Shown: one piece after another, positions 405 to 3,506 of the stretch
How positions within the stretch are numbered: the first letter of the stretch is position 1
How the letters are laid out: the number at the start of each line of letters is the position of its first letter
DNA from: Prevotellaceae bacterium
GTDB taxonomy: Bacteria; Bacteroidota; Bacteroidia; Bacteroidales; Bacteroidaceae
Direction of reading: 5' to 3'
Assembly: GCA_030523505.1 (NCBI GenBank)
Contig: JAUNIK010000017.1
Location: 1 to 15,727 of the forward strand
DNA: 15,727 bases
Notes under the pieces: model-generated
The model's input: the letters and a program-made list of their open reading frames with translations, nothing else
Databases searched by the model: none
Told to the model about the DNA's origin: nothing
Program-made: the position numbers and the translations under genes

Positions 405-441
405 CTCCCTCTCCTTCGGAGAGGGCGGGGGGTGAGGCTTT
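405..441 (+). repeat. GC-rich palindromic repeat, copy A
   Basis: A perfect 8-bp hairpin (407-414 with 418-425, loop TTC) is followed by a G-rich tail ending GAGGCTTT. The same layout, palindrome then a GGGgaGAGGcT-like tail, recurs at 2062-2101, 2580-2611 and 15630-15665. The tail runs into the TAA stop codon of the amylase gene. On the minus strand no T-run follows the stem, so it is a weak terminator candidate. Confidence 0.7.
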
Positions 442-2116
442 AGAATTTCAATACCACTCCACTGTTGGCTGGGATGGTGACCTTTACGGCGGCATCACGA
501 CGGAAGGTGAGGGATGCCTTGCTGCCTGAAAGGAGGTCAGTGGCTTCCTTGGTGCCTTCAGCGAGATGGAGATAGTCGAAGGCGTGGGCAGGAATTACAA
601 CCTCTACTTCCTCGTCGTAATCGCAGAAGTTGACGGCTACGAGCATGTCATTACTGCGGAGGAACGCATACTGGTTCTGACCGAGATGTGGGTTGACATA
701 CATAAGATCGTAGGTGGCACCCTTGACAACACTCTTGTCCTTGCCTGCTATATGAAGGATGGTCTTGTAGGTTTCTTCAAGGGCTTTCTCCTGCGCAGTG
801 AGTTTACGGCGGTCGTAATAACCGTGACGAAGGGTGTCAACACACCAGTAGTCGAAGATGGTGGTGCGACCATCGCATCCGGAGAATCCTTCCTTGTCCA
901 TGCCTCGTTCGCCAAACTCCTGACCTGCATAGATCATCAACGGATTCTTATAGAGAAGGGCGGAGATGATGAGAGCTGGTATGGCTTTCTGGGCGTTGCC
1001 GGCAAAGAAGTCGGAGGCAATGCGCTGCTCGTCGTGGTTCTCGAGGAAATAGAGCATGTGGTCGCGGATGTCATCGACAACCTGCCACTGATGGGTGATG
1101 GCTGATGTAGGACACTGATCGCAGGTGATGGCGCGAAGGGTGTCGTACATGCCGACCTTGTCGTAGAGGTAGTCGAAACCGGAATTGATATAGTTACGAT
1201 ACTGCGCTGGGTTATACACCTCGCCGATGAGGAGTATGCCGGGATACTGCTCTTTGAGTTTCTGCGAAGCATACCACCAGAAGGCGCATGGCACCATCTC
1301 TGCCATATCGCAACGGAAGGCGTCAACGCCCTTCGATGCCCAGAAGAGGAGTATGGCGGTCATCTTCTCCCATGTCGATGGCACTGGGGTGAAATGCTCT
1401 GATGGATGACCCGACCAGTCGTTGTAGTCGATGCCGTAGTTGAGTTTGATGGTCTCATACCAGTCGTTGATCGATGGGCGCGCGGTGAACTGGTCGTTAC
1501 CTGTAGCGCGAGCCGGTGATTCTACATATCCAGGACCGTTAGGCGACACAAAGTCCTCGCCTACGCAGTAGTAGAAATTGTTCTGTGGAGAGAAGTGCCA
1601 GTGGCGATTGTCATCGAAACCGAGGTCCTGCACTCCGGCAGGCTTGGCGATGGAACGATACTGACGAGCGACATGGTTTGGCACGAAATCCATGACGACC
1701 TTAAGACCAGCCTCATGAGAGCGCTCGATGAGGCTCTCCCACTCTGCCATACGGTTTTTCACGTCGGTGGCAAGGTCAGGATCGACATCATAGTAGTCGC
1801 AGATAGCATAAGGCGAACCGGCATTGCCTTTCACCACCGATGGGCTCTGTGTAGGGATGCCGTAGGCGCTATAGTCGGTGCAGGTGGCATGGCGTATTAC
1901 ACCGGTGTACCATATATAGTTGGCACCGAGGTTCTTGATGCGCTTGAGAGTCTTTGCATCGAAGTCGGCAAACTTACCCGTGCCGTTCTCTTCGAGGGTG
2001 CCATTCTCCTTGCAAGAATTATTCTTATTGCCAAAAAGACGCGTAAATACTTGATAGATTAGAAGCCTCTCCCCGGCCCTCCCCATTAGGGAGGGAGTAT
2101 TGATTACCTTTTTCAT
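440..2116 (-). CDS. GH13 alpha-amylase-type glycoside hydrolase, cytoplasmic, with a repeat-encoded N-terminal insert
   Basis: At 558 residues this is an (alpha/beta)8-barrel enzyme acting on alpha-glucans. All four GH13 regions are visible: DFVPNHV (D143-V149), FRCD with the likely nucleophile D270, GEV with the acid/base E299, and NHD (N360-D362) with the transition-state aspartate. The tail from about residue 460 to the end looks like the usual beta-sandwich C domain. There is no signal peptide, so it probably works on cytoplasmic maltodextrin or glycogen; the exact substrate cannot be read. Relatives as I recall begin MKK followed directly by (I/L)IYQVFTRLFGN. Here about 15 extra residues (VINTPSLMGRAGERL) sit between MKK and the conserved IYQVFTRLFGN, and they are translated from a palindromic repeat. 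The upstream neighbour is the DUF559 gene, 53 bases away. I see no clear promoter immediately upstream. Confidence 0.93.
   Translation of the reverse strand: MKKVINTPSLMGRAGERLLIYQVFTRLFGNKNNSCKENGTLEENGTGKFADFDAKTLKRIKNLGANYIWYTGVIRHATCTDYSAYGIPTQSPSVVKGNAGSPYAICDYYDVDPDLATDVKNRMAEWESLIERSHEAGLKVVMDFVPNHVARQYRSIAKPAGVQDLGFDDNRHWHFSPQNNFYYCVGEDFVSPNGPGYVESPARATGNDQFTARPSINDWYETIKLNYGIDYNDWSGHPSEHFTPVPSTWEKMTAILLFWASKGVDAFRCDMAEMVPCAFWWYASQKLKEQYPGILLIGEVYNPAQYRNYINSGFDYLYDKVGMYDTLRAITCDQCPTSAITHQWQVVDDIRDHMLYFLENHDEQRIASDFFAGNAQKAIPALIISALLYKNPLMIYAGQEFGERGMDKEGFSGCDGRTTIFDYWCVDTLRHGYYDRRKLTAQEKALEETYKTILHIAGKDKSVVKGATYDLMYVNPHLGQNQYAFLRSNDMLVAVNFCDYDEEVEVVIPAHAFDYLHLAEGTKEATDLLSGSKASLTFRRDAAVKVTIPANSGVVLKF
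2062..2101 (-). repeat. GC-rich palindromic repeat, copy B, inserted inside the amylase reading frame
   Basis: On the minus strand the order is palindrome (CTCCC...GGGAG type) then tail GGGGAGAGGCTT, the same as copies A, C and D. It is bounded by GATTA on both sides (2057-2061 and 2102-2106, plus-strand reading). The 40-base insert plus one 5-base copy equals 45 bases, exactly 15 codons. Removing that unit would give M-K-K-V-I-Y-Q-V-F-T-R-L, the family-like start. This is good evidence for insertion with a 5-bp target duplication. Confidence 0.75.
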
Positions 2117-2169
2117 ATAAAAACAATGTCCTTACCCCAGTAGAATATAAATAATTAAGAAACTACTGT

Positions 2170-2562
2170 TTATAGGGGTGAATTGATTTTTTCCTTTAAT
2201 AATTCAAGAACGGATTCTATACGGCAGTTGATATCTTCGTTGGAGAATCTTATGACCTCAAAGCCCAAAGCATTCAACTGCATTGTACGGATTTCATCCT
2301 CTTTTTTCTGCTCCGTAGAATCGTGATAGCCACCATCGACCTCAATGACAAGACCCAAAGATATGCATGCAAAATCAGCGATATAATCGCCTATTGCATG
2401 TTGTCTTCTGAATTTCACACCAAGCTTACTATTGCGCAGATGCTCCCAAAGCAGCATCTCCTCGTGAGTCATGGTTTTACGATTCGAACATGAATTTGCC
2501 TTCAGGATAGCATATCTATCAGGATGTGCAGTTCTGAAAAAACGGTTATCGTCCTTTACCAT
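2170..2562 (-). CDS. DUF559 family protein, Vsr-like PD-(D/E)XK endonuclease fold
   Basis: A 130-residue protein with the DUF559 signature: LWEHLRNSKLGVKFRRQH at 39-55, then DYIADF (D63), IEVDGGYH at 73-80 with E74, D76 and H80, and a late VIRFSNEDI (103-111). These residues correspond to the metal-binding core of very-short-patch-repair-like nucleases; the length is normal for the family and the gene appears intact. Biological roles of DUF559 proteins are largely unknown; DNA nicking or cleavage is inferred from the fold. The start codon is 47 bases downstream of the fabD stop and just past the fabD terminator, with no clear promoter of its own, so expression may depend on readthrough. The gene lies between two inverted copies of the GC-rich palindromic repeat, suggesting it is an accessory or mobile-derived insert. 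Confidence 0.85.
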   Translation of the reverse strand: MVKDDNRFFRTAHPDRYAILKANSCSNRKTMTHEEMLLWEHLRNSKLGVKFRRQHAIGDYIADFACISLGLVIEVDGGYHDSTEQKKEDEIRTMQLNALGFEVIRFSNEDINCRIESVLELLKEKINSPL

Positions 2563-2574
2563 ACGCTACAGAAC

Positions 2575-2599
2575 AAAAAGCCTCCCCTAATGGGGGAGG
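2575..2599 (-). terminator. fabD terminator formed by a palindromic repeat
   Basis: On the minus strand a 7-bp perfect GC stem (CCTCCCC, plus-strand 2581-2587 with 2593-2599) is followed by C and five T (2575-2579). It starts 10 bases after the fabD stop codon. The stem is the palindromic half of repeat copy C. Confidence 0.75.
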
Positions 2600-2611
2600 T
2601 TGGAGGGGGCT
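2580..2611 (+). repeat. GC-rich palindromic repeat, copy C
   Basis: Palindrome 2581-2599 followed by the tail TTGGAGGGGGCT, same order as copy A and opposite to copy B. The last bases overlap the fabD stop codon (2610-2612). Together with copy B it brackets the DUF559 gene with palindromes inward and tails outward. Confidence 0.7.
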
Positions 2612-3506
2612 ATTGAATTCCCTTTATTGTCACACCTTCAACACCCTTGGCAATCTTGGCAAGCATGCCCTGAAGAGCCTTACCAGGACCGCACTCGGTG
2701 AACTCTGTTGCACCAGCAGCAATCATGTTCTGTGCCTCCTGTGTCCAACGAACGCTTGCTGTGAGCTGAGCGATGAGGTTTGCCTTGATCTCAGCAGCCT
2801 CAGTGTGAGCCTTTGCATCTACATTCTGATAGATAGGGCACTTTGGTGTGTGGAACTCTGTTGCTTCGATAGCCTTCTGGAGCTCCTCCTGTGCAGGGAG
2901 CATGAGTGGTGAGTGGAATGCACCACCAACAGGCAACATCAACGCACGCTTTGCACCTGCAGCCTTGAGTTTCTCACAAGCAGTCTCGACAGCTTCCTTG
3001 TTACCACTGATAACGAGCTGACCAGGGTTGTTGTAGTTTGCACAAACAACTGGCTTCTCAGGTGTTGTTACCTCTGCACAGATACCTTCGATAACATCGT
3101 CAGCCAAACCGATGATTGCAGCCATACCACCAGGTACTACCTCGCAGCACTTCTGCATTGCCATAGCTCGAGCGGCAACGAGTTTCAAACCGTCCTCGAA
3201 ACTTACTGCACCAGCAGCAACGAGAGCAGAGAACTCGCCGAGAGAGTGACCGGCAACCATTGCTGGCTGGAACTCATCGCCGAGGCAGAGAGCTGTGATG
3301 ACGCTGTGGAGGAACACTGCTGGCTGTGTCACCTTTGTCTGCTTGAGTTCCTCGTCGGTACCGGCGAACATAATATCAGTAATCTTAAAGCCGAGGATCT
3401 CGTCGGCCTTGTCGAACAATTCTTTTGCGAGTGGGTTTGTATCGTAGAGGTTCTTGCCCATACCTACGAACTGGCTACCCTGACCAGGAAAAACAAATGC
3501 TTTCAT
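2610..3506 (-). CDS. fabD: Malonyl-CoA:ACP transacylase (FabD)
   Basis: 298 residues, normal length. It transfers malonyl from CoA to the acyl carrier protein, supplying the extender unit for type II fatty-acid synthesis in the cytoplasm. The N-terminal FPGQGSQ (7-12) forms the oxyanion region, the nucleophile is S88 in GHSLGE (86-91), R113 would bind the malonyl carboxylate, and H198 in GGAFHSP completes the dyad. It begins 72 bases downstream of the tamL stop but has its own strong promoter at 3542-3573, so it can be expressed independently of the tetR-tamL block. The stop codon TAG is fused to repeat copy C, which also supplies the terminator. The fabG gene lies in the same orientation upstream, so two fatty-acid synthesis genes flank the TAM genes. 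Confidence 0.96.
   Translation of the reverse strand: MKAFVFPGQGSQFVGMGKNLYDTNPLAKELFDKADEILGFKITDIMFAGTDEELKQTKVTQPAVFLHSVITALCLGDEFQPAMVAGHSLGEFSALVAAGAVSFEDGLKLVAARAMAMQKCCEVVPGGMAAIIGLADDVIEGICAEVTTPEKPVVCANYNNPGQLVISGNKEAVETACEKLKAAGAKRALMLPVGGAFHSPLMLPAQEELQKAIEATEFHTPKCPIYQNVDAKAHTEAAEIKANLIAQLTASVRWTQEAQNMIAAGATEFTECGPGKALQGMLAKIAKGVEGVTIKGIQ

Follow-up and report, generated by a model that had tools for sequence, protein, structure and literature searches.

The window, the whole stretch of 15,727 nucleotides analysed here, corresponds to contig C265 in the assembly of a Prevotella-type bacterium. This assembly, which is split into 662 contigs and 80% complete, is referred to below as the own genome (G000). 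On its reverse strand, a gene for an acyltransferase, which we take to be fabD, is followed in coding direction by a gene for a DUF559 protein and by a gene for a GH13 alpha-amylase (Table 1). The predicted amylase carries an N-terminal extension, TPSLMGRAGERL, within which a palindromic repeat (copy B) is translated. Across the DUF559 gene lies another repeat (copy C), whose outer edge falls on the stop codon of fabD. Copy A adjoins the GH13 stop codon and in this resembles the left ends of the cassettes described below, which lie at upstream stop codons.

Table 1. Genes, repeats and short motifs of the window (positions counted from its first letter)
Feature	Position	Strand	Evidence
GH13 alpha-amylase gene with N-terminal extension	440..2116	-	PF00128, E 2.5e-22
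DUF559 gene, 130 aa, Vsr/homing-endonuclease-like nuclease (predicted)	2170..2562	-	PF04480, E 2.6e-32; predicted structure
fabD-like acyltransferase gene, conserved upstream neighbour of GH13	2610..3506	-	PF00698, E 1.9e-44; synteny
Repeat copy B, proposed right terminal palindromic repeat of the DUF559 cassette	2060..2098	-	Sequence, own-genome relatives, R1, hairpin
GATTA (coding strand TAATC), GH13-side copy	2057..2061	+	Sequence
GATTA, start-codon-side copy, inside codons 4-5	2102..2106	+	Sequence
Stretch from DUF559 stop to repeat, with start codon (2114-2116) and MKKVI; probably cassette-supplied	2102..2169	-	
Repeat copy C, proposed left terminal repeat, inverted relative to copy B	2575..2612	-	Inverted-repeat pair I9
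Repeat copy A, solo, abutting the GH13 stop codon	404..442	+	R1, 47.9 bits; sequence
Further repeat copy close to the contig end	15629..15669	+	R1, 25.9 bits, E 1.4e-6

Direct reading confirms what a sequence-only reading of this DNA had described, namely that a GC-rich palindromic repeat sits in frame shortly after the GH13 start codon and is flanked on either side by GATTA. Its arithmetic is also correct: the 40-base insert (GAAGCC...GAGTATT, 2062-2101) plus one GATTA makes 45 bases, or 15 codons, and excising these on paper leaves MKKVIYQVFTRL. The insert had been placed after codon 3; it follows codon 5, GTA and ATC being codons 4 and 5. In the own genome, a BLAST search with an 86-base query for copy B returned 14 further places, of which the top one matches at 92% over 37 bases (E 1.1e-8), while E exceeds 0.1 for five; the repeat model R1 finds at least 115 places. 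Copy B scores 44.3 bits with R1, although copies A and B are among the 18 sequences behind the model, so that the scores of these two arise by construction; copy C is a weak match (8.2 bits).

Copy B can be drawn as a hairpin (CCCTCCC-loop-GGGAGGG), and the hairpins of the repeat fold at about -8 kcal/mol as DNA. In alignment A2, whose 18 related rows were mostly chosen for intact hairpins, one pair varies on both sides (6 cells) with a covariation score above all 500 shuffles, and further pair types are no more frequent than in the shuffles. Given this fold and the position of copies at gene ends, including copy A, the repeats could be read as non-mobile regulatory hairpins acting as terminators or in mRNA stability, with the GH13 extension a product of local mutation and slippage. 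We regard this as very improbable: single hairpins have an energy that is unexceptional for their composition (z -1.4 to -2.0), the repeat recurs across the own genome in the numbers given above, copies occur in frame within genes identified by eye as those of LeuRS, a CCA-adding enzyme and others, and presence/absence data disfavour it, a 606-bp unit being missing from an otherwise 98-99% identical locus (see below).

That the repeat adds a peptide to the protein is borne out by the GH13 homologues. The extra residues occur in none of 109 other GH13 loci (93 distinct sequences, some genomes being present in both collections), which start with M, a few residues (e.g. MKP, MEK, MKT) and then [IV][IV]YQ or similar. 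A search of about 5.8 billion proteins, in which the 8000 candidates sharing most words were scored and the best 120 listed, likewise showed that the same residues are not found across homologues: among these 120, only P0002 (82%) has a comparable leader, MKNVKNINNSSTSLPSLGRGGERLLIYQVF, while P0017 and P0063, truncated at the N-terminus, are uninformative on this point. The top-ranking homologue, P0001, shares 530 of 543 aligned residues (98%) with the amylase of the window and starts MEKIIIYQVF without the repeat. Excision of the insert had been expected to restore the family start, yet this nearest empty allele is 14 residues shorter and does not read MKKVIYQVF. Because MEKII and MKKVI differ at two of the first five residues while the rest is 98% identical, a start brought by the insert is favoured over a retained host start, and the GH13 start codon is probably supplied by the inserted DNA; the likeness of MKKVI to the family start, as expected for a retained host start, points the other way. 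At the nucleotide level, an empty site of the GH13 locus was not found in 398 genus genomes, where the best other listed matches have about 72-79% identity over about 300-400 nt, nearly all in fabD, nor among 100 relatives, where the best GH13 match is 67%.

The GATTA pair had been interpreted as a 5-bp target duplication. A regular-expression scan of the fetched loci gave 286 copies of the repeat, of which 68 solo copies and 152 copies forming 76 inverted pairs were used, and direct repeats within 12 nt of both ends were counted against shuffled partners. Among the solo copies, 5-mer duplications were found at 8 of 68 (5.6 expected; 38 of 200 shuffles reach 8), the chance frequency of a 5-base direct repeat being about 8% per copy; 4-mers were found at 24 (19.1 expected; reached by 18 of 200 shuffles), 6-mers at one (1.2 expected) and 7-mers at none. 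Among the inverted pairs, 5-mers were found at 6 of 76 (3.45 expected; 23 of 200 shuffles) and 4-mers at 17 (15.1 expected), with no 6- or 7-mers. Neither the 68 solo nor the 76 paired copies showed a preferred offset. A fixed-length target duplication, the trait of a classical insertion sequence or MITE, was therefore rejected for want of a clear excess, and, with 5-base duplications near their expected frequency, the GATTA pair is unremarkable and probably due to chance.

The gene order of the window differs from that at the 109 homologue loci. In 106 of them, GH13 comes immediately after fabD, with both genes in the same direction and 4-309 nt apart, and DUF559 was found at none of the 109 (tblastn with the DUF559 protein of the window, in limited flanks of at most 3 kb for one locus set). 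The own genome holds eight DUF559 matches, and palindromes are seen by eye on both sides of seven; at the locus L101 the right palindrome is present and the left is cut by the contig end. One of the own-genome copies (L103, G000:C161:14046-14357) has an internal TAG and has probably decayed, with both repeats kept. In the genus there are 191 DUF559 matches, in 87 of 150 genomes. Among the 97 loci analysed (8 own, 29 returned as loci and 60 fetched, mostly from the top of the list), the repeat motif lies on both flanks of 55, on one flank of 23 and on neither flank of 19, some of which carry other inverted repeats. The same scan found the motif in 4 of 191 windows 740-1000 nt away and in 1 of 120 GH13 flank windows.

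The flanks of DUF559 genes are also related to each other. Over the 95 DUF559 loci with full flanks, the median inverted-repeat score is 31, compared with 13 for swapped partners and 10.25 for 60 GH13 genes; 80 of the 95 exceed the GH13 maximum and 46 exceed the 99th percentile of the swaps. The two ends of one cassette thus tend to match each other. The cassette of the window is an exception, as its ends match poorly, and its score of 13.5, at the level of swapped pairs, counts against the cassette reading. At five loci (L136, L152, L216, L242 and L189), the flanking repeats appear by eye to be reversed, with the G-rich block inward, which suggests a second architecture.

Based on these comparisons, we propose that a mobile cassette of about 550 bp, made up of a palindrome, a DUF559 gene and an inverted palindrome, sits at the fabD-GH13 junction, with copy B as its right terminal repeat; we give this reading a probability of roughly 0.7. 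Alternatively, copy B could be a solo repeat that was inserted after codon 5 of GH13 with GATTA as a 5-bp duplication, the DUF559 gene having arrived separately. This would explain the GATTA on both sides, the resemblance of MKKVI to a GH13 start such as ATGAAAACGGTAATCTATCAA in L025 and the difference between copies B and C. It is nevertheless unlikely, since the 98% identical empty allele (MEKIIIYQ) differs at two of the five residues preceding the repeat and is shorter by 14 rather than 15 residues, since 5-base duplications have no clear excess in either set of copies, and since the arrangement of the window is common among DUF559 cassettes (33 of 88, see below). The sequence-only reading, which had made the repeat mobile, was upheld as regards insertion and a repeat family with presence/absence differences between close genomes, and was not upheld as regards a solo repeat entering after the gene's own start with a 5-bp target duplication.

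The cassette reading draws further on the reading frames at the ends of DUF559 cassettes. By motif or alignment criterion, a right repeat is present at 88 of the 97 loci. The DUF559 frame reads through it in 24 of the 88; in 33, including the window, a start lies before the repeat and the frame is open through it into the next gene (class S); the remaining 31 have neither. Open frames thus run through the right repeat into the downstream gene in 57 of 88 cassettes. The scoring of these classes had no chance control, and since roughly two in three frames of the repeats are free of stop codons, some class S cases may be accidental. In 24 of the 33 class S cassettes, the start lies no farther along than the last base of the DUF559 stop codon, whereas that of the window lies 53 nt past it, which counts against the cassette reading. 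No ATG follows within 16 codons of the repeat in 43 of the 57 in-frame cassettes. Seven of the 57, four of them among these 43, lie inside genes, where no start is expected; of the 50 others, 39 have no such ATG and have apparently lost the host start. The proteins downstream, which we presume from their motifs by eye, include guanylate kinase, IspF, ArgC, ArgG, TsaD, acetolactate synthase and RmlD, and the in-frame cassettes inside genes lie in genes read by eye as LeuRS, CCA-adding enzyme, ABC-F protein, helicase, epimerase and aminotransferase. At the left end, 38 of 82 loci have the upstream stop codon no more than 4 nt away from the repeat, as scored by a heuristic frame test that left 15 loci unscored.

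Alleles with and without the repeats were found in close genomes. A DNA search showed that G003 is without a 606-bp cassette of G026 at a locus that is otherwise 98-99% identical, between genes named by eye as an electron-transfer gene and an acyl-CoA dehydrogenase gene. The junction is unclean, with about 14 nt beside the dehydrogenase start in G026 and about 5 nt in G003. As the cassette is also present in G124, G132 and G146, G003 may have lost it, and these data give presence and absence without a direction. DUF559 cassettes with different end types were seen by eye at the electron-transfer/acyl-CoA dehydrogenase junction in eight genomes (L149, L156, L188, L192, L198, L206, L237 and L238), either a recurrent site or an old insertion with changing ends. 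In about 140 kb of alignment between G003 and G026, several size differences carry repeats, two of which were examined closely. One site has a 109-nt inverted pair in G003 and 22 nt in G026, a net difference of 29 codons, and both versions are stop-free in translation (NKYK...FIANGD). Between G132 and G146 (about 156 kb at 94.3%), one site carries different repeat subtypes in each genome. No clean cut rule was found at the junctions of these two genome pairs.

The abundance of the repeat follows the presence of DUF559. R1 was run on 40 chosen genus genomes, some with cassettes already known, and its counts are at-least values from the best 150 or fewer candidates scored per genome. The median is 82.5 copies in the 22 genomes with DUF559 and 1 in the 18 without (Mann-Whitney p = 1.5e-6); with four near relatives left out, p = 7e-6, and without the genomes that supplied the model (G000, G026, G044, G117, G124 and G132) the medians are 49 (16 genomes) and 1 (p = 2.0e-5). 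The exceptions are G032 and G098, with 41 and 18 copies and no DUF559 match, and G061, with no copies and two DUF559 matches, the better one at E 5.3e-7 only. From this association we infer that DUF559 drives the movement of the repeats and cassettes. Conversely, another enzyme, for instance a RAYT-type Y1 transposase, may move the repeats, with DUF559 a passenger that hitch-hikes or was trapped; the role of DUF559 being an inference, the repeats in G032 and G098 and the Y1 transposases in 20 of the 40 genomes, the sole other enzyme class compared, leave some room for this. It is improbable in light of the copy numbers, which have a median of 13.5 both with and without Y1 (20 genomes each, p = 0.80), a result on which Y1/RAYT transposases were rejected as partners of the repeat. 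Furthermore, no Y1 match was found in G000 (PF01797, 80% complete assembly), G003, G026, G124, G132 or G146, which have 28-138 copies, and the ends of one cassette are more alike than those of different cassettes.

The DUF559 protein of the window matches PF04480 with 111.4 bits (curated cut-off 20.6), and a Vsr-like PD-(D/E)XK fold is predicted for it. Its AlphaFold2 model, built with 50 sequences, has a mean pLDDT of 85, and the first seven Foldseek matches include a gonococcal endonuclease-like protein (3hrl, 3.1e-7), the catalytic domain of I-Bth0305I as second hit (3r3p, 4.7e-4) and E. coli Vsr (1cw0 and 1vsr, 2.7e-2). A profile search found the first two as well (3hrl 1.4e-28, 3r3p 1.3e-6). 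In the 50 sequences, E35, E74 and D76 are invariant and D63 nearly so. PADLOC gave only weak matches to restriction and Dpd proteins, and NCBIfam gave matches only below cut-off. In Caulobacter, one DUF559 protein, VsrA, is reported to be tied to a DNA damage response in cells lacking a methyltransferase (PMC12907096). Literature searches, judged by title and the start of the abstract with subscription papers and bioRxiv outside their reach, returned no account of DUF559 mobility, and a prior description is possible; over the same range, none was found for DUF559 with inverted repeats, for REP with Vsr or for Vsr endonucleases with palindromic repeats, and nothing relevant to in-frame palindromic repeat insertion in Prevotella appeared among the matches listed.

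At the locus of the window, the cassette would have landed at the tight fabD-GH13 junction, leaving fabD to end at the left repeat and replacing the first GH13 codons with its own start codon and the in-frame right repeat, so that GH13 could still be made with a putative N-terminal leader of about 18 residues. The DUF559 protein would nick or cut the palindromic ends or the target, and the cassette and its non-coding relatives (solo repeats and inverted pairs) would be copied by repair into new or allelic sites, leaving no fixed target duplication. Open frames through the ends, together with a start that often overlaps the DUF559 stop, may make insertion at or inside operon genes tolerable.

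Several known systems share parts of this anatomy, as described in four papers (PMC3733652, PMC10969869, PMC3116915, PMC2884548). REP and REPIN sequences are short palindromes with an asymmetric tag that occur solo or as inverted pairs, and in the REP/RAYT system (REPtron) a gene is flanked by the same repeats (PMC3116915; PMC3733652). The cassette is similar in having solo and paired palindromes and a gene of DNA-cutting type between the same repeats. As in REPINs, inverted pairing is frequent, with 76 of 133 adjacent copies within 900 nt in -+ order, a count inflated by the fetching of loci largely around DUF559 genes; the spacer is of cassette size (350-700 nt) in 36 of the 76 and below 200 nt in 37. 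Unlike in REPtrons, the flanked gene encodes DUF559 (PD-(D/E)XK, Vsr-like) and not an HUH/Y1 transposase, the right ends are often translated in open frames, and as many as 8 DUF559 matches occur in one genome, against the single copy described for RAYTs (PMC3116915). In contrast to REP sequences, no GTAG or CGTC tag was seen on inspection of alignments A1 and A2, the consensus ending in ACTCCC and GGCTT. TIRtrons also carry a gene between inverted repeats that form repeat families, but their TIRYT enzymes are tyrosine transposases of Y1 type (PMC3733652), and the enzyme here is DUF559.

The use of reading frames is shared with another system. Rickettsia palindromic elements (RPE) are described as palindromic DNA of about 150 bp inserted in frame into unrelated genes, to whose products they add a peptide (PMC10969869). 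The repeat studied here is likewise inserted in coding frames, in GH13, at nucleotide level between G003 and G026, and by eye in LeuRS, CCA-adding enzyme and epimerase. The two were compared by description, and they differ in that a nuclease gene accompanies the present repeat, the right end of which gives rise mostly to N-terminal leaders. With I-Bth0305I and other homing endonucleases of the Vsr fold, the cassette shares the catalytic domain, by profile and by Foldseek; unlike those, it has no recognised intron or intein (in the window, Rfam matched only a tRNA, and a Pfam scan of six proteins gave no intein domain) and appears to stay in the open frame rather than being spliced out. The cassette would therefore seem to work like a REPtron with a different enzyme and like an RPE in its use of reading frames, and its enzyme would place it outside the REPtrons as these are defined.

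Tentatively, at odds somewhat short of even, palindrome-ended DUF559 genes may form a separate class of mobile elements, in which a nuclease of Vsr/homing type, without kinship to known transposases, moves DNA with palindromic ends, the solo and paired repeats are non-autonomous, and the start codon and translatable end suit operons and coding sequence. If so, an element of a separate class would make leaders or nuclease fusions of essential proteins and would account for the many unexplained palindromic repeats of high GC content in Bacteroidota, and perhaps for those of Cyanobacteria, Deinococcota and Alphaproteobacteria. This would give DUF559, a widespread family of unknown function, a mobile context and palindromic repeats a source. 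It also provides a testable case of mobile DNA that rewrites N-termini, here those of proteins taken for guanylate kinase, IspF, ArgC and TsaD, and that keeps the frame where it lies within LeuRS and MetH (read by eye). For annotation, start codons and DUF559 fusions at such loci may reflect mobile DNA and not domain function.

Beyond the genus, DUF559 matches were found in 138 of 247 genomes of a phylum sample. Of the 29 loci returned, 28 had usable flanks, and 15 of these, but not the other 13, score above the 95th percentile of swapped pairs; by eye, open frames at phylum loci join DUF559 to LeuRS, MetH and restriction subunits. From a plasmid collection, nine named records were taken of 38 with a DUF559 match. 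Clear palindromic ends were not seen at the loci of E. coli (score 14), Azospirillum (18) and Sinorhizobium (12). The other six were judged to have them: two Deinococcus, Sphingomonas and Pseudanabaena score 22-68, whereas for Synechocystis (19) and Picosynechococcus (16.5) the call is by inspection only, at scores close to the negative at 18.

Other palindromic sequences were encountered alongside the repeat. A second palindromic family (GGGACAGACG...CGTCTGTCC) occurs in stretches of G026 that are missing from G003, at G026:C9 near 26164 (L326) and at G026:C5 near 21119 and 28577 (L313). At 162-275 of the window lies a 37-nt inverted repeat, 81% complementary with its arms 40 nt apart, that contains TCATTCTGTCATTCTGTCTAA; similar text is found in L015 and may represent another dispersed palindromic family.
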